Shown: positions 20,975 to 38,247 of the stretch, one piece after another
Numbering within the stretch: the stretch's first letter is position 1
Layout: every line of letters starts with the position of its first letter
Origin: Polyangiaceae bacterium
GTDB taxonomy: Bacteria; Myxococcota_A; Polyangia; Polyangiales; Polyangiaceae
DNA: 51,991 nucleotides
Direction: 5' to 3'
NCBI GenBank assembly: GCA_020849655.1
Contig: JADLFU010000122.1
Location: forward strand, 1 to 51,991
The notes under the pieces: model-generated
What the model saw: only the letters and a program-made list of their open reading frames with translations
What the model was told of the DNA's origin: nothing
Database searches by the model: none
Program-made: the position numbers and the translations under genes

Positions 20975-22408
<1,434 letters not shown>

Positions 22409-28564: not shown

Positions 28565-30478
28565 CTAGCCGCGCGCCTCGATCACCGCGCCGTCGTCGAG
28601 GGCGATCCTCGCGCCGCCCGCGCCGACCGAGATCGCCCGGACGTTCGCGCCGAGGTGCGGGAGCAAGGCGACCCGCATCCAGGCCTTGTCCGCGCGCGAG
28701 ACGGCGCGCGCGTCGTCCCCTCCGGCGATCACGAGCTTGCCGTGCGCGCCGACGGCGTGGAGATCGCGCGTCGTCTGCACGGGCTCGAGCCGCGCCTCGA
28801 GCTCGCGCGTGACGATGAGCGCGTGCCCTCCGGAGCCGACGACGTGCGCGACGCCGTCCGCGCCCGCCGCGATCGCGAGCAGGTGGCCCGTGCGACCCCA
28901 CGCGATGGGCTTCGGCCCGGAGGCGCCGATCTGCACGAGCTCGCCGGCCTCGCCGCACGCGAGCAGCGCGCCCGTCGTCAGGCGGGTCGCCGCCAGCAGC
29001 CGCTCGGTGCCCTCCACCGCGGTCACGGCGAGCGGCAGCCCTGGTCGGAGGCTGCCGAGCACCGACGCCCTCCGCGCGCGGCTCTGGCCCACGAAGATGA
29101 GCTCGCCCGGCGCGAGCGTCGCCGACACCCACGAGATGTCGGGATCGGGGGGCGCCCAGGGCTGCGCGCGCCCGTCCGCGCCGACCCCGTGCAGCACGCC
29201 GTCTCCGTGGAGCACGACCTCTCCGGTGGGCGTCGCGACCAGCCCGCGCACGAGGCTCGGCTCGACGCCCGAGAGCGGGAGGCGCTTCCACGCCTGCCCA
29301 TCGAAGCGGTAGAGCCCTCCGCGGCCGAGCGCGAACGCGACGCCGCCGTCGGGGGCGAGCGTCATCGCCGTCGCCCGCTCGGGCAGCGCGCCCTTGCTGA
29401 CGACGCGCGGCGAGCCGGGAGCGGGGGGCGCGTCCAGCTTCGACGCCGGCACGGGCGCGCTGACGGCGCCCATCACCCCCGAGCTCGACGAGCGGCGTCC
29501 TGCGGCCGTGCGCAGCGTGGGCTCGACGGCGTCCCAGAAGTCCCGGAGCGTCGCGTGCCGCTCGGCCGGGTCCGCGGCGGTCGCGCGGAGGAGCTCTCGG
29601 TCGAGCGCGGCGACGAGCTCCGGGCGGTCCGCGAGCTCGGGCGACAGGCACGCCGCGTGCGGCGCGAGCTGCGGCCTCGGCCCCGAGAGGATGCGAGAGA
29701 GCACCTGGAACGCGCTCTCCCGCTCCCCCACGGGGAACGCCGAGCGCCCCGTCAGCGCCTCGATCAGCACGACGGCGAAGGAGAAGAGATCGGTGCGCGG
29801 CGACACGCGGCGGTTGCCCATCTCGAACTGCTCCGGCGGCGCGTAGCCGAGCGAGGCGCCCGCGAGCGCGACCGTGCCCTTCACGTCGACGTCGAAGCGC
29901 TTCACGAGGCCGAAGTCGCCCACCTTCATCACCTCGTTGCCGGCCTCGCTCGTGATGAGGAGGTTGGAGGGCTTCAGATCGCGGTGGACGATCTGCGCCG
30001 CGTGCACCATCCCGAGCGCGCGCGCGACCTGGCGAAACAGCCTGCGCGCGCGCCCCGGGGCCATGCCGCGCCCGGGCGAGCCGGAGATGATCTCCTGGAG
30101 GTTCGTGCCGTGCACGTACTCGAGGACGGTGAACGGCAGCGCGTAGACCTCGCCGTCCGACATCGCGCAGCGATGGATTCCGTGGTCGAAGTAGCGCACG
30201 ACGCTGGGGCAGGGGGCCTGGGACTGCCCGAGCTTGCGGAGCACGTCGGCCTCCCGGAGGAACCTCGCGAGCGCGTCGTCGTTCACGACGTCGGGCCGCA
30301 AGAGCTTCACGACCACCCAGGGACCGTCGGGCTCGTCGTAGCCCGCGCGGTACACCCAGCCCTGCCCACCCTGACCGAGCAGCGCCGAGAGGTGGTACGA
30401 GACCCCCTGCGCCCCGCCTATCGGGCGCTGGGTGAGCTGGTCGCGGATCTGCCGCAGCCGCGGGTCCGAGATGGTCAT
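28565..30478 (-). CDS. Ser/Thr protein kinase fused to a predicted beta-propeller
   Basis: 637 aa, no membrane helix. Kinase at about 28-310: G-loop GQGGQGWV (35-42), Lys58 in VVVKLL, HRDLKPSN (165-172), DFG (188-190), and APPEQFEMG. A 40-residue linker leads to a C-terminal half (about 350-637) of repeated strands with 'GGVAFALGRGGLYRFDG', 'GEVVLHGDGVLHGV', 'GAGGARIALDDGAVIEARG'. This looks like a six- to seven-bladed propeller of the Kelch/NHL/sugar-sensing kind, likely a sensor or docking platform. Divergent from the kinase-receiver gene with 70 bp between starts, so both may share a control region. Confidence 0.88.
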   Translation of the reverse strand: MTISDPRLRQIRDQLTQRPIGGAQGVSYHLSALLGQGGQGWVYRAGYDEPDGPWVVVKLLRPDVVNDDALARFLREADVLRKLGQSQAPCPSVVRYFDHGIHRCAMSDGEVYALPFTVLEYVHGTNLQEIISGSPGRGMAPGRARRLFRQVARALGMVHAAQIVHRDLKPSNLLITSEAGNEVMKVGDFGLVKRFDVDVKGTVALAGASLGYAPPEQFEMGNRRVSPRTDLFSFAVVLIEALTGRSAFPVGERESAFQVLSRILSGPRPQLAPHAACLSPELADRPELVAALDRELLRATAADPAERHATLRDFWDAVEPTLRTAAGRRSSSSGVMGAVSAPVPASKLDAPPAPGSPRVVSKGALPERATAMTLAPDGGVAFALGRGGLYRFDGQAWKRLPLSGVEPSLVRGLVATPTGEVVLHGDGVLHGVGADGRAQPWAPPDPDISWVSATLAPGELIFVGQSRARRASVLGSLRPGLPLAVTAVEGTERLLAATRLTTGALLACGEAGELVQIGASGPKPIAWGRTGHLLAIAAGADGVAHVVGSGGHALIVTRELEARLEPVQTTRDLHAVGAHGKLVIAGGDDARAVSRADKAWMRVALLPHLGANVRAISVGAGGARIALDDGAVIEARG

Positions 30479-30548: not shown

Positions 30549-31916
30549 ATGACGGACGAAGACTCCGAGGGGTTCCTCCGCGTGACGCTCGTGGTCGAGG
30601 AGGACTCGGTCGACCCGCTGTCGCTGCCGGGCGGGCTGCGAGGCCAGGTGCTCGCCGGGCGCTACCGCCTGGGCGGGCTCGTCGGTCGAGGCGGCGCGAG
30701 CGAGGTGTACTCGGCCGAGGATCTCGCAGACGGCGGCGCGTGCGCCGTGAAGGTGATGCTGCCGCACGTCGCGGCCGAGCCGGAGCACGCGCGGCGCTTC
30801 GAGCGAGAGGCCCGCGCGGCCGCGCTCCTCGTCCACCCCAACGTCATGCGGGTGCTGTGCCTCGCGGTGGACCCGACGCGCGACCTCTACTTCATCGTGA
30901 TGGAGCTCGGGATCGGGCGCTCGCTCGCGTCGACGGCGTCGCGGCACGCGGGGACGCTCCCGCTCGCGTTCGTCGGAGACGTGCTCGGCGCGCTGCTCGA
31001 CGTCGTGGCGTTCGCGCACGCGCGCGGCGTGCTGCACCGGGATCTCAAGCCCGAGAACGTGCTGCTCGTCGATGGGCCCGCCGGGCGCTATACGCCGAAG
31101 GTGCTTGACTTCGGGCTCGTTCGGATCATCTCCGACGCGAGCTCTCGCTCGGTGACGGAGCCGAGCATGATCCGCGGGACACCGGCGTACATGAGCCCGG
31201 AGCAGTGCCGCTCGCTGCTCGACGCGGGGCCGGAGAGCGACGTCTACGCGCTCGGGTGCATGGCCTTCGAGCTGCTCGCCGGGCACGTCCCCTTCGACGC
31301 GCCGTCCGCGATGGAGACGCTGGCGCGGCAGCTGTTCGCGGCGGTGCCGCCCCTCGTACGTCCGTCGGGCGCCGAGCCGCTGCCCGAGGAGCTGCGCGCG
31401 CTCGTGGCGGCGATGATGGCGAAGGCGCCGACCGACCGGCCGACGGCGGCGGAGGCGGCGAAGCGCCTCCGCGACGCGTTGACGACGGCGGGGGTGCCGC
31501 TCGGGAGGTTCGAGCTGCCCGTCTCGGCGCCCGTCACGCCGCCGCGCGCGGGTCACGCGGCGGACCCCCCGCCGGCCTCGCTGACGGGCAAGCGCGTGGC
31601 GCTGCTCCGCCTCGACGCTGGTCGCGCGGTCGTCGACGCCGTCGTCGACGGGCTCCGGGCGCGCGGCGCGAAGGTGGAGGAGCTCGCGCGGCAGGCCGTC
31701 GCCGTCACGGCCGCGGGCGCGCTCGTCATCGACGCGGGCGCCGACGTGGCGGAGGGCCTGGCGCTCGCGTCGCGGGTGCGTCGCGCGCGCCCCGCGATCA
31801 AGATCGTCGTCGTGACCTCGGCGGGGGCGGGCGCGCCGCTCCCTGGCGTCATCTTGCTGCGGGCGCCGGTGACGCTGGACGCGCTCGTCGAGGCGCTCTC
31901 GCACCGGCGCGAGTGA
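30549..31916 (+). CDS. Ser/Thr protein kinase fused to a degenerate receiver-like domain
   Basis: 455 aa from ATG 30549. Kinase about 38-320: G-loop GRGGASEV (46-53), Lys68, HRDLKPEN (163-170), DFG (187-189), MSPEQCR; complete. After a Pro linker, residues about 345-455 have a (beta-alpha)5 pattern like a response-regulator receiver: KRVALLRLDAG (beta1, acidic pair missing), ALVIDAGADVAEGLALA (beta3, phospho-Asp position possibly Asp), IKIVVVTSAG (beta4 Thr/Ser), and LLRAPVTLDALVEAL, where the conserved Lys-Pro is Arg-Ala-Pro. This may be a pseudo-receiver used for binding rather than phosphotransfer. Followed 45 bp later by the STAND kinase gene. Confidence 0.85.
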   Translation: MTDEDSEGFLRVTLVVEEDSVDPLSLPGGLRGQVLAGRYRLGGLVGRGGASEVYSAEDLADGGACAVKVMLPHVAAEPEHARRFEREARAAALLVHPNVMRVLCLAVDPTRDLYFIVMELGIGRSLASTASRHAGTLPLAFVGDVLGALLDVVAFAHARGVLHRDLKPENVLLVDGPAGRYTPKVLDFGLVRIISDASSRSVTEPSMIRGTPAYMSPEQCRSLLDAGPESDVYALGCMAFELLAGHVPFDAPSAMETLARQLFAAVPPLVRPSGAEPLPEELRALVAAMMAKAPTDRPTAAEAAKRLRDALTTAGVPLGRFELPVSAPVTPPRAGHAADPPPASLTGKRVALLRLDAGRAVVDAVVDGLRARGAKVEELARQAVAVTAAGALVIDAGADVAEGLALASRVRRARPAIKIVVVTSAGAGAPLPGVILLRAPVTLDALVEALSHRRE

Positions 31917-31961: not shown

Positions 31962-34823
31962 ATGGCGACGACGGTGGCCGACCCCTCGCCCGCGGCGCCG
32001 GGAGACGTGCTCGCCGGCCGCTTCCGGCTGCTCGAGCGGCTCGGGCAGGGCGGCTTCGGCGAGGTGTTCCGGGCCGCGGAGCTGCTGCCGGACGGCTCGA
32101 CGGTGCGCGAGGTCGCGCTGAAGCTGCTGTCGACGGCGCGGAGCGAGGACGACTGGGCCCACGAGGCGAGGGCGCTCGCGCAGCTGTCCCACCCGGCGCT
32201 CCCCACGATCTTCTCGGCCGGCGTGCTGCCGACCGCGCCGCCGCGGCCGTTCGTGGCGATGGAGCTGCTCGTCGGTGAGACCCTCGACGTCGCGCTCGCG
32301 GAGCGAGGACCGATCGGGTGGCGGCGCGCCCTCCACCACGCGCGCGAGCTCGCGGGCGCGCTCGACGCCACCCACGCGGCGGGCATCGTGCACCTCGACG
32401 TCAAGCCGTCGAACGTGCTCCGCGAGCGCGGCGGGGGCGTGCGGCTGCTCGACTTCGGCATCGCCGAGCTGCCGGACGCCTCGCCCCCGCGCGGCGCCCG
32501 AGCGGCCAGCGCCCTCTCGACCGCGGAGGTCCTCGACGACGGGTCGGACGATCCCGGCGCCGCGCGCTCCGCGAGGGTCGCGGTCGGGACACCGGGCTTC
32601 ATGGCGCCCGAGGTGATCGAGGGACGCCCCGCGCGCGCGGCCGCGGACGCGTACGCGCTCGGCGTCTGCCTCGCGCTGATGATCGGCGGCGCGCTGCCGC
32701 ACCGCGCAGGGGCGGTGCCCGCGCGGGGGGCTCCGGAAGACTCCGTGGCGACGTGGCGCGCGTCCGTCCAGCGCGCGACGCTCGCGGGAGACCTCGACCT
32801 CGAGCCGCTCGCGCGCGCCGCCCCGCGCGGGGTCGTGGCGCTGGTGCGCGCGCTCACGTCGCTCGATCCTGCGGCGCGGCCCGCGGGCCTGAGGGCGCGC
32901 TTCGACGAGGCGTGGGAGCGCCCGTTCGGCGTGCCCGAGAGCCCGTACCTCGGCCTCTGCGCGTACGGCGCGACCGCGGAGGGCGTGCTGCCCGGTAGAG
33001 ACGACGACGCCGCGCGCCTCGCGGCCGAGCTGGCAGCGGGGAGCGTGATCGTGCTCCAGGGCGCGAGCGGCTCGGGGAAGAGCTCGCTCGCCGTCGCCGG
33101 CGTCGTGCCCGCGCTCGCGAAGCGCTTCGCGGACGATCTGGACGGCTGGGAGGCGGTCGTCGTGCGACCTGGCGACGACGTCGACGCCTCGCTGCGCCGC
33201 GCGCGCGGGGGGGCGTCGGCGCGTGTTGGGATTGTGCTTGTGGTCGATCAGCTGGAGGAGCTGGTCACGTCGCTCGACGCGCCGTCCGCGGCGAGGTTCG
33301 CGCTCGCGCTCTCGCGCCACTCGTCGCCGACGCCGGGGCTCCGCGTGCTCGCGACGCTCCGCGAGGACTTCACGACGCGCGTCGGAGAGATCGGCGAGCT
33401 CGCGCGGTGGCTCGAGGCGGCCGTGCGGTTCGTCGCGCCGCCCTCGCTCGCCGCCGTGAGAGAGATCGTCGTAGGCCCGGCGCGGCTCGCGGGGGCGGAG
33501 ATCGACGACGCCCGCGAGATCGTGGAGGAGGCGGCGCGCGAGCTGCGGTCGGGCGAGGGGCGGCTGCCGGCCGTCGCGTTCGCGCTCTCGGAGTGGTGGG
33601 CGACGCGGCGGGACGGGCGCCTCTCCGCGAGCGCGTGGCGGGCGCAGGGCGGCGTGACCGGCGCGCTCGCGAGGCACGCGGACGCGACCCTCGGGCGCCT
33701 CACCGACGATCAGCGCGCGGCCGCGCGTCGGCTGCTCCTCTGCCTCGCGGGGCCCGACGCCACGCGCGTGCGCCTGGGCGGCCGGGAGGTCGCGGAGCTC
33801 GGCGCGGACGCGCGCGCGGCGCTCGACGCGTTCGTCGCCGCGCGGCTGATAGGGCGCGACGACGACGGCGCGGCGTCGTACGTGCACGAGTCGCTCCTGT
33901 CGGCGTGGCCGACGTTGACGGGGTGGATGGAAGAAGAGCGCGTCGATCGCGCGCACGGGGCCGAGCTGGAGAGGGCCGCCCGCGCGTTCGCCGGCGCGGC
34001 CGCGCGCGAGCGCGCCGACCACCTCCTGCGCGGGGTCCGCCTGGCCCGCGCGGAGGACCTCGCGCGTCGGCGAGGGGATCTCGTCTCCGTCGCCGCGCCG
34101 CTGCTCGTGGCGTCGCGGAGGCGCGCCCGCGCCGAGACGTGGGCGCGCACCTCGCTCGCGCTGACGGCGCTCCTGGTCGCGGCCGGGGTGGTCGGCGCCG
34201 GCGCGTGGGTGAACAAGCAGCATGAGCGCGAGATCGCGCTCCGCGAGTCGAACCTGAAGAGCCTGCTGAAAGAGGCCGACGGCGTGAAGCGGACGGCCGA
34301 GCAGATCCTCGCGCGCTACGGGGAGCGCGATCACGACGCGCAGCAGCTCGAGGCCTCGCTGCGGGCGTGCCAGCAGGCCCGCGTGCGCGCCGAGCAGGAT
34401 CACCGCGCCGCGCAGGCCGCCCGATACCCGAGCGACACCCGTGAGGCGAAGCTCGTCATGTTCCTGCAGTCGTGGGAGCACGCGTACAACCTGCACAGCG
34501 ACGGCAAGCTCCTCTCGTTCTTCGCGCCGACGGTCGACTGGATGGGGCAGCAGCGCGCGCGCGAGGCGATCGTGGAGGCGCTCGCGGCCGAGTGGCGGAG
34601 GAGCCCGTCGAACCGCGTGATGCTGGGGGACATCGCGGTCACCAAGCGAGAGGGCGGCGAGGCGCGCGTCCGCGCCACGCGCGAGGAGCGGACCGCGGGC
34701 GTCACGACCATCGCGAGCGTGGTGTTCGTCATCCAGGGCGAGAAGCCGGAGGACCTCCGCATCGTGAGCGGCGAGGTCGAGCGCACCATCACGACGGGCA
34801 AGATCGTCGGCTGCAGGGAGTGA
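31962..34823 (+). CDS. Ser/Thr kinase - STAND-like NTPase - TM - NTF2-like fusion
   Basis: 953 aa. Kinase domain about 20-320 (G-loop GQGGFGEV 28-35, Lys54, HLDVKPSN 144-151 lacking the HRD Arg, DFG 164-166). Next a STAND/AAA-like NTPase, about 330-640: YLGLCAYGATAEGVLPGRDDD, Walker A GASGSGKSS (368-376), Walker B GIVLVVDQLEEL, then a helical region (650-725). One TM helix (about 731-750) is followed by a coiled coil (751-815) and an extracytoplasmic NTF2/SnoaL-like domain (about 825-945; SWEHAYNLHSDGKLLSFF, then RAREAIVEALAAEW). The kinase-NTPase order resembles kinase-STAND proteins of myxobacteria and cyanobacteria; the NTF2 end is unusual. An alternative GTG start lies 10 codons upstream. 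Confidence 0.85.
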   Translation: MATTVADPSPAAPGDVLAGRFRLLERLGQGGFGEVFRAAELLPDGSTVREVALKLLSTARSEDDWAHEARALAQLSHPALPTIFSAGVLPTAPPRPFVAMELLVGETLDVALAERGPIGWRRALHHARELAGALDATHAAGIVHLDVKPSNVLRERGGGVRLLDFGIAELPDASPPRGARAASALSTAEVLDDGSDDPGAARSARVAVGTPGFMAPEVIEGRPARAAADAYALGVCLALMIGGALPHRAGAVPARGAPEDSVATWRASVQRATLAGDLDLEPLARAAPRGVVALVRALTSLDPAARPAGLRARFDEAWERPFGVPESPYLGLCAYGATAEGVLPGRDDDAARLAAELAAGSVIVLQGASGSGKSSLAVAGVVPALAKRFADDLDGWEAVVVRPGDDVDASLRRARGGASARVGIVLVVDQLEELVTSLDAPSAARFALALSRHSSPTPGLRVLATLREDFTTRVGEIGELARWLEAAVRFVAPPSLAAVREIVVGPARLAGAEIDDAREIVEEAARELRSGEGRLPAVAFALSEWWATRRDGRLSASAWRAQGGVTGALARHADATLGRLTDDQRAAARRLLLCLAGPDATRVRLGGREVAELGADARAALDAFVAARLIGRDDDGAASYVHESLLSAWPTLTGWMEEERVDRAHGAELERAARAFAGAAARERADHLLRGVRLARAEDLARRRGDLVSVAAPLLVASRRRARAETWARTSLALTALLVAAGVVGAGAWVNKQHEREIALRESNLKSLLKEADGVKRTAEQILARYGERDHDAQQLEASLRACQQARVRAEQDHRAAQAARYPSDTREAKLVMFLQSWEHAYNLHSDGKLLSFFAPTVDWMGQQRAREAIVEALAAEWRRSPSNRVMLGDIAVTKREGGEARVRATREERTAGVTTIASVVFVIQGEKPEDLRIVSGEVERTITTGKIVGCRE

Positions 34824-37266: not shown

Positions 37267-38247
37267 ATGAAGACGGGGGCTCTCTCCACGCTGTGCGCGC
37301 TGTTGTCCATCACGCTCTTCGCCTGTTCGGGCGAGGTCACCGACGCGGCCGACGGCGGCGCCACCGCGGAGAGCGAGGAGGCCGCGACGAGCGCGGGCCG
37401 CGCGACCTACTACCGGGTCGTCCGCCAGGACACGCGCAAGTGCGCGTACCCCATGTGCGGCGGCGTCTACGTCGCGCGTGTCAACGCGGCGACGACGAGG
37501 TGCGCCGACGGCACCTCCCAGGCGGAGTGCTACGTCGCCGACCTCGACCTCTCGGGCCTCGGCCTGACGCCGGCCCACGCGAGCTCCATCTCCGAGCGCG
37601 CGGAGGCGGGCCGCGTCGTGCTGCGGGGATCGGTGAAGCTCCAGACCCTCGGGGGCCGCAAGGCGCCGCGGTTCGACGCGACGGAGGCGTGGGAGCAGCT
37701 GGGCAGCGGGCAGGCGACCGGCACCTTCTACAAGGTCGTCGACCGCGGCATCCGCTGCATCACCACGCCGTGCCCCTCGTTCGAGGAGGCGAAGCTGAAC
37801 TCGTCGAGCGCCGTGAAGCTCGTCGGGTTCGACGTGTCGCAGGCGGGTCTCTCGGAGGCGGAGGCGGCGGCCGTCCACGCCGCGAGCGCCGCCGGCGTGA
37901 TCGCCGCGGGCTCGAACGTCGTCACGCCCGCCGCGGGGCCGGCCGGCGCCGCGACGGACCTCGTCGCGACCGCCGCGTTCGTGCGCGTCCGGCCGGTCGC
38001 AGGCTACTGCGACGACGACTCGCAGTGCGTGATGACCACCTCGACGCGCGCCGTCTCGAAGAGGTCGCAGTGCTACTGCCGCACGTGCCCCGACGCCCTG
38101 GACGTCGACACGGCCGCCGAGAACGAGCAGGACTACGCGACCCTCTGCGCGAGCTTCCCGGGGCCGTGCCCCGCGGTGAAGTGCATGGCCCGCGAGGCGA
38201 GGTGCGTCGACCACAGGTGCACGGCGGTCGCGCCGACCGCGAACTGA
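37267..38247 (+). CDS. Lipoprotein with two tandem Cys-containing modules
   Basis: 326 aa. Signal peptide with a lipobox at LFACSGE (Cys about 20). Two related modules: RATYYRVVRQDTRKCAYPMCGGVYVARV... (from about 45) and GTFYKVVDRGIRCITTPCPSFEEAKLN (from about 155), each followed by a D/G-rich GF/L-x-x-L-S region; the style is that of DUF6748-type proteins of Myxococcota. The C-terminal 80 residues are Cys-rich (CDDDSQCVMTT, CYCRTCP, CPAVKCM) and probably disulphide-bonded. Function unknown; likely on the cell surface. Confidence 0.8.
   Translation: MKTGALSTLCALLSITLFACSGEVTDAADGGATAESEEAATSAGRATYYRVVRQDTRKCAYPMCGGVYVARVNAATTRCADGTSQAECYVADLDLSGLGLTPAHASSISERAEAGRVVLRGSVKLQTLGGRKAPRFDATEAWEQLGSGQATGTFYKVVDRGIRCITTPCPSFEEAKLNSSSAVKLVGFDVSQAGLSEAEAAAVHAASAAGVIAAGSNVVTPAAGPAGAATDLVATAAFVRVRPVAGYCDDDSQCVMTTSTRAVSKRSQCYCRTCPDALDVDTAAENEQDYATLCASFPGPCPAVKCMAREARCVDHRCTAVAPTAN

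Follow-up and report, generated by a model that had tools for sequence, protein, structure and literature searches.

An nSTAND1 NTPase joined to a Hanks-type kinase and a predicted outer NTF2-like domain in Polyangiaceae

Described systems and the family of the window protein

STAND proteins are mostly regarded as soluble cytoplasmic sensors. One of their clades, nSTAND1, was named within predicted conflict systems (PMC8195603), and it has been seen with CLec/FGE sensors and fused to DGR-diversified sensors (PMC10907252). Among membrane kinases, single-pass proteins carrying WD40, TPR or FGE domains predicted to be periplasmic have been reported (PMC11032199). Extracellular NTF2-like domains, which tend to bind small molecules, also occur on membrane kinases, where a ligand-sensing role was proposed (PMC3924330). 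In GTPase-centred systems, NTF2 was furthermore observed past a TM segment (PMC7159879). Searches of the literature, in which nSTAND1 is rarely named, returned neither a paper on a kinase-nSTAND1-TM-NTF2 combination nor a statement that nSTAND1 is generally membrane-spanning, which is weak evidence of absence in both cases. They returned no experiment on the protein described here or on any kinase-nSTAND1 protein, and no functional work on the nSTAND1 proteins of myxobacteria and actinobacteria.

A contig of 51,991 nucleotides from a Polyangiaceae bacterium (hereafter the window) was analysed, and one of its genes encodes the five successive parts listed in Table 1. With the DUF3828, DUF4878 and DUF3887 families (PMC3924330) the encoded protein shares a predicted layout of kinase inside, TM helix and NTF2-like domain outside. 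The same holds for three Hanks kinases (L160, L176 and L182) whose outer domain belongs to the subfamily found in the window protein. In contrast to the window protein, all of these lack a STAND NTPase between the kinase and the membrane. The nSTAND1 proteins of conflict systems (PMC8195603, PMC10907252) have an NTPase of the same clade, with an effector or adaptor before it and a sensor after it, but differ by their EAD, peptidase or TIR N-termini, their CLec/FGE sensors and their conflict-type neighbours. CaMKII is likewise a Hanks-type kinase with a C-terminal NTF2-like domain, and the fold matches of the window protein's domain include its hub chains; it is however soluble and eukaryotic, with neither NTPase nor TM helix.

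The closest likeness in domain order was observed in kinase-nSTAND1-TM-WD40 proteins (the paralogue L057 on contig G000:C144, L077 and L105), where kinase, nSTAND1, arginine-rich stretch, TM helix and sensor follow each other as in the window protein. They carry a large beta-propeller outside and HRD kinases, whereas the window protein has a coiled coil and a small NTF2-like domain. The paralogue (G000:C144:65393-66556), a protein of 1841 residues, is the only other strong nSTAND1 protein of the genome.

The sequence-only reading had presented an outside sensor feeding an inside NTPase and kinase as a compact receptor whose layout would be new. Its anatomy and the outside-to-inside direction are supported by the present analysis; the novelty had to be given up. 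The series kinase, nSTAND1, TM helix and outer domain occurs widely among myxobacteria. Outer NTF2-like domains on membrane kinases are already on record (PMC3924330), and Polyangiaceae have examples as well. The general layout is thus known, and only the joining of nSTAND1 with this particular NTF2-like outer domain is unusual.

Table 1. Features of the kinase-nSTAND1 gene and its upstream neighbour, in window coordinates
Feature	Residues	Position	Strand	Remarks
Upstream kinase gene		30549..31916	+	Pkinase E 3.4e-41; gap of ~45 bp to the next gene
Whole gene, kinase - nSTAND1 - TM - coiled coil - NTF2-like	953 aa	31962..34823	+	Backed by ORF, codon-position GC and full-length orthologues
Hanks-type Ser/Thr kinase domain	16-320	32007..32921	+	HLD catalytic loop, DFG, APE; Pfam PF00069
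Insert between DFG and GTPGF...APE	168-207	32463..32582	+	~40 residues, low confidence; pLDDT <50 at 167-206
nSTAND1 NTPase	328-678	32943..33995	+	Pfam PF20703 E 1.4e-69; pLDDT ~85-95
Walker A, GASGSGKSSL	367-376	33060..33089	+	G372, K373, S375 invariant in 19 nSTAND1 proteins
Walker B, VLVVDQLEEL	425-434	33234..33263	+	D429, Q430, E432, E433 invariant in 19 nSTAND1 proteins
Arginine-rich stretch before the TM helix	717-731	34110..34154	+	Positive side
Predicted single TM helix	732-750	34155..34211	+	Kyte-Doolittle (KD) 2.11; position conserved in family
Predicted coiled-coil stalk	753-821	34218..34424	+	One long helix in AF2 model; invariant C803
NTF2-like (SnoaL/DUF4440-like) domain, very probably extracytoplasmic	823-951 (core ~823-940)	34428..34814	+	Ends at invariant C951

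A sister species within the genus has a full-length orthologue (73% identity), and so has one species of another genus (52%). The full combination of kinase, nSTAND1, TM helix and NTF2-like domain was found in three species of two genera among 183 genomes of the order. With the window protein's own sequence as query, the C-terminal domain was likewise recovered in 3 of the 183 genomes, and nSTAND1 exceeded its cut-off in 136 of 177. In a tree built on kinase and nSTAND1 the three orthologues group together (99) and are nested in a Polyangiaceae clade of HLD kinases (SH-aLRT 100). The other members of this clade share the HLD kinase with the window protein but differ from it beyond the membrane: L066 ends in a bare stalk, and L051-L056 continue for about 800 mostly unassigned outer residues. 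In these latter proteins (~1490-1680 aa) Walker B is altered or unrecognised, for instance DPLED instead of DQLEE in L051, and they are possibly inactive STANDs.

Outer ends vary throughout the family. WD40 repeats lie outside in 15 of 35 kinase-bearing relatives and are the usual arrangement beyond the TM helix in a set of 94 nSTAND1 proteins, while an FGE-sulfatase domain takes this place in a kinase-nSTAND1-TM protein of Hyalangium versicolor (L064). The occurrence of WD40, FGE, stalk-only and NTF2-like ends across relatives indicates that the outer domain has been exchanged repeatedly. Proteins with nSTAND1 and an equivalent TM helix but other N-termini were found in many phyla.

Kinase and NTPase

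The open reading frame displays a GC content of 0.79/0.56/0.95 by codon position, a pattern typical of real genes here. The ATG at its first position is backed by the equivalent start of an orthologue (MATTV / MPTTV).

The N-terminal part shows the sequence features by which a Hanks-type Ser/Thr kinase is recognised, namely the VAIK lysine, the helix-C glutamate, HxD, the asparagine, DFG and APE. Pfam Pkinase matches residues 22-307 (E 4.7e-28), and the AF2 model superposes on PknB (5u94) with Z 29 and an rmsd of 2.3 over 254 residues. It had been noticed from the sequence that the catalytic loop reads HLD and not HRD. This was confirmed, and the other catalytic residues (K54, E68, D146, N151, DFG at 164-166, A215-E217) are invariant across the three orthologues. 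So are T187-A188 within the insert that follows DFG. Against NCBIfam equivalogs the kinase scored below the curated cut-offs, with 92 of 460 bits for MADS MAD6 and 132 of 450 bits for the PASTA kinase.

The assignment of the following region to the STAND NTPases, made earlier on account of clear Walker A and B motifs, holds. By its sequence it belongs to nSTAND1, with a score of 236 bits against a curated cut-off of 27.1, with positions 1-373 of the 379 in the profile covered and with the GxxGxGKS and DQLEE motifs intact. Beside the Walker residues, the nSTAND1 invariants R467, D469, H642 and E643 are kept across the same 19 proteins. The AlphaFold2 model, computed from an alignment of 19 rows, is confident for the kinase and the NTPase (pLDDT ~85-95 for residues 325-730) and of low confidence for the outer part. 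A structure prediction of residues 320-650 had been proposed as a check: this region is indeed modelled with confidence, but the domain extends to about residue 680 and not 650. By sequence no close solved relative of nSTAND1 was found, the matches being to P-loops only. The fold search with the full-length model was dominated by kinases and left the NTPase unmatched to a solved STAND, which is not a sign of absence.

Membrane helix and C-terminal domain

The membrane helix and the coiled coil recognised in the first reading were both recovered, the latter as a long helix of the model. A single strong hydrophobic segment is present in the window protein; the next best (KD 1.74) falls inside the kinase. 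With a positive-inside TM helix between kinase and sensor, the protein is predicted to be a single-pass receptor kinase.

The same arrangement was observed in the wider family. A hydrophobic helix is present in 90 of 94 nSTAND1 proteins (Myxococcota, Actinomycetota, Cyanobacteria, Chloroflexota and others), a set picked by similarity to the nSTAND1 core and hence not drawn at random from the family. The middle 80% of these helices lie 302-335 residues past Walker B, and the N side is the more positive one in 87 of the 90. After removal of duplicates (85 proteins), 99% reach KD 1.4 at the helix position compared with 45% of shuffles, and at the stricter KD 1.8 the values are 93% and 11%. The mean charge asymmetry around the helix is +3.9 in these 85 proteins vs -0.2 in shuffles. 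Cysteine numbers, counted on partly related proteins, were even in 50 and odd in 15 tails, and even in 41 and odd in 31 inner parts. In the window protein C803 and C951 are the only two cysteines of the outer half, and all three orthologues keep both. Evolution is faster in this half, with 36% identity to the distant orthologue against 58% for the inner one, as expected of a sensor.

An extracytoplasmic NTF2-like C-terminus had also been proposed. The NTF2-like assignment was right, though relatives were needed to bring it out. The window protein alone matches SnoaL_2 at E 0.093, the distant orthologue at E 5.7e-5 (24.1 bits vs a cut-off of 27), and a lipoprotein relative of the domain matches DUF4440 at E 9.9e-5. 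In an isolated AF2 model, helices and strands follow each other as in NTF2, with a low pLDDT of 54. PDB matches of this low-confidence model were mostly NTF2-like (ketosteroid isomerase, CaMKII hubs), with Z ~5 and a Foldseek E no better than 0.09.

A profile made from the C-terminal domain of the three orthologues retrieved further Polyangiaceae genes. Conversely, a profile of these relatives only, leaving out query and orthologues, retrieved the window protein with a score of 28.7 bits, against a maximum of 5.8 among 1000 shuffles of the domain. The match between the C-terminal domain and a lipoprotein family is thus reciprocal. In 108 genomes of the family, the stronger matches of a joint profile were mostly short proteins with a lipobox or an N-terminal signal. 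They also included at least three Hanks kinases without nSTAND1, those mentioned above, which bear the domain at their far end; L160 is part of the joint profile, L176 and L182 are outside it, and L192 matched more weakly. These lipoprotein and kinase relatives support both the NTF2-like fold class and the outside location. On the strength of such profile matches the C-terminal domain is assigned to the NTF2-like class, and it very probably lies outside, since its nearest Polyangiaceae relatives are lipoproteins or the ends of other membrane kinases.

The lipoproteins of about 290 residues (L151, L162, L163, L164 and L165) bear the same divergent NTF2-like domain, for which Pfam coverage is weak. 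The kinases L160 (G146:C70), L176 and L182 each combine a Hanks kinase with a TM helix and this domain at the C-terminus. When the SnoaL_2 and DUF4440 models were used as probes for kinase fusions in relatives, the long ORFs obtained were not kinases; the fusions were found only by the profile made from the C-terminal domain itself.

Signalling model and alternative readings

The window protein is probably a single-pass receptor kinase of the inner membrane, whose outer NTF2-like domain would govern a STAND switch inside the cell and, through it, the clustering and activation of the kinase. The periplasmic domain would either bind a ligand, be it a small molecule, a component of the envelope or a partner protein, or change its pairing, and the stalk and the TM helix would relay this event to nSTAND1. 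In response, nSTAND1 would leave a closed ADP form for an ATP-bound one that self-associates. The N-terminal kinases gathered in this way would undergo trans-phosphorylation and then act on cellular targets, the product of the upstream kinase gene possibly among them. Ligand, switch and targets are proposed here on the basis of what is generally known of STAND proteins and receptor kinases, and the ADP/ATP switch would be carried over from other STAND clades.

A broader suggestion is offered more tentatively. The nSTAND1 clade as a whole may be a membrane-spanning STAND family, with the sensor outside, NTPase and effector inside and a freely swapped outer domain (WD40, FGE, NTF2-like or stalk only). 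The window protein would then count among the smallest clear members, as a transmembrane STAND that is gated by a ligand and switches a kinase, unlike the soluble STANDs studied so far. Its small outer domain, single helix, intact NTPase and kinase within less than 1000 residues make it a tractable case for asking whether an external signal can operate a STAND switch, and the same question extends to the many nSTAND1 proteins of myxobacteria and actinobacteria.

The chief rival gives the outer domain a structural task, keeping the receptor dimeric or oligomeric in the manner of the CaMKII hub, the signal (nucleotide level or partner protein) being sensed inside by the NTPase. The C-terminal domain may indeed serve to join subunits rather than to bind a ligand: dimers are common among NTF2-like domains, the fold matches include hub chains of CaMKII, the coiled coil favours pairing as well, the stalk would be stabilised if C803 and C951 were bonded, and some relatives have a stalk without any outer domain. 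This reading is nevertheless considered unlikely, because divergence is faster in the outer domain than elsewhere in the protein and the lipoprotein relatives of this domain have no kinase to pair.

A role in cell death or defence, raised in the sequence-only reading, would imply that the NTPase is set off by phage or by an attack on the envelope and that the kinase kills or arrests the cell. The definition of nSTAND1 within predicted conflict systems (PMC8195603), its fusion elsewhere to DGR-diversified sensors (PMC10907252) and the use of kinases as effectors in some systems speak for it. The neighbourhood gives it no support. The order M20 peptidase, G6PD, alanine racemase, two kinases, the 953-residue protein and Tex is conserved in the sister species and contains no known defence genes. 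A search for an anti-phage gene set or specific model yielded generic kinase models only, with no partner genes nearby; the PADLOC matches PD-T4-6 and mad6 are such models and are common to the neighbouring kinases too. As the protein also lacks a toxic effector domain, this role appears improbable. The least credible reading is that of a wholly cytoplasmic protein in which the hydrophobic segment forms a buried helix, since the Ala-rich, moderately hydrophobic character of the segment (KD 2.1) and its place among the least conserved parts of the sequence are outweighed by the family-wide helix position and charge pattern, the lipoprotein relatives of the last domain and the cysteine pattern.

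Returning to the receptor kinase model, the upstream kinase gene is a probable operon partner in this genus: the pair is kept in the sister species. It was rejected as an obligate partner, as the pair is absent at the third orthologue, L063, which is preceded by an HD/receiver protein and followed by a Nudix gene. A receiver domain at the end of the upstream kinase is not claimed, the resemblance to Response_reg being faint (E 0.069). Further downstream in the window (37267-38247) lies a gene for a DUF6748 protein that was not found in the otherwise syntenic contig of the sister species. Two further Hanks-type kinases are encoded at window positions 28565-30478 and 20975-22408, which brings the number of kinase genes to four within 14 kb.
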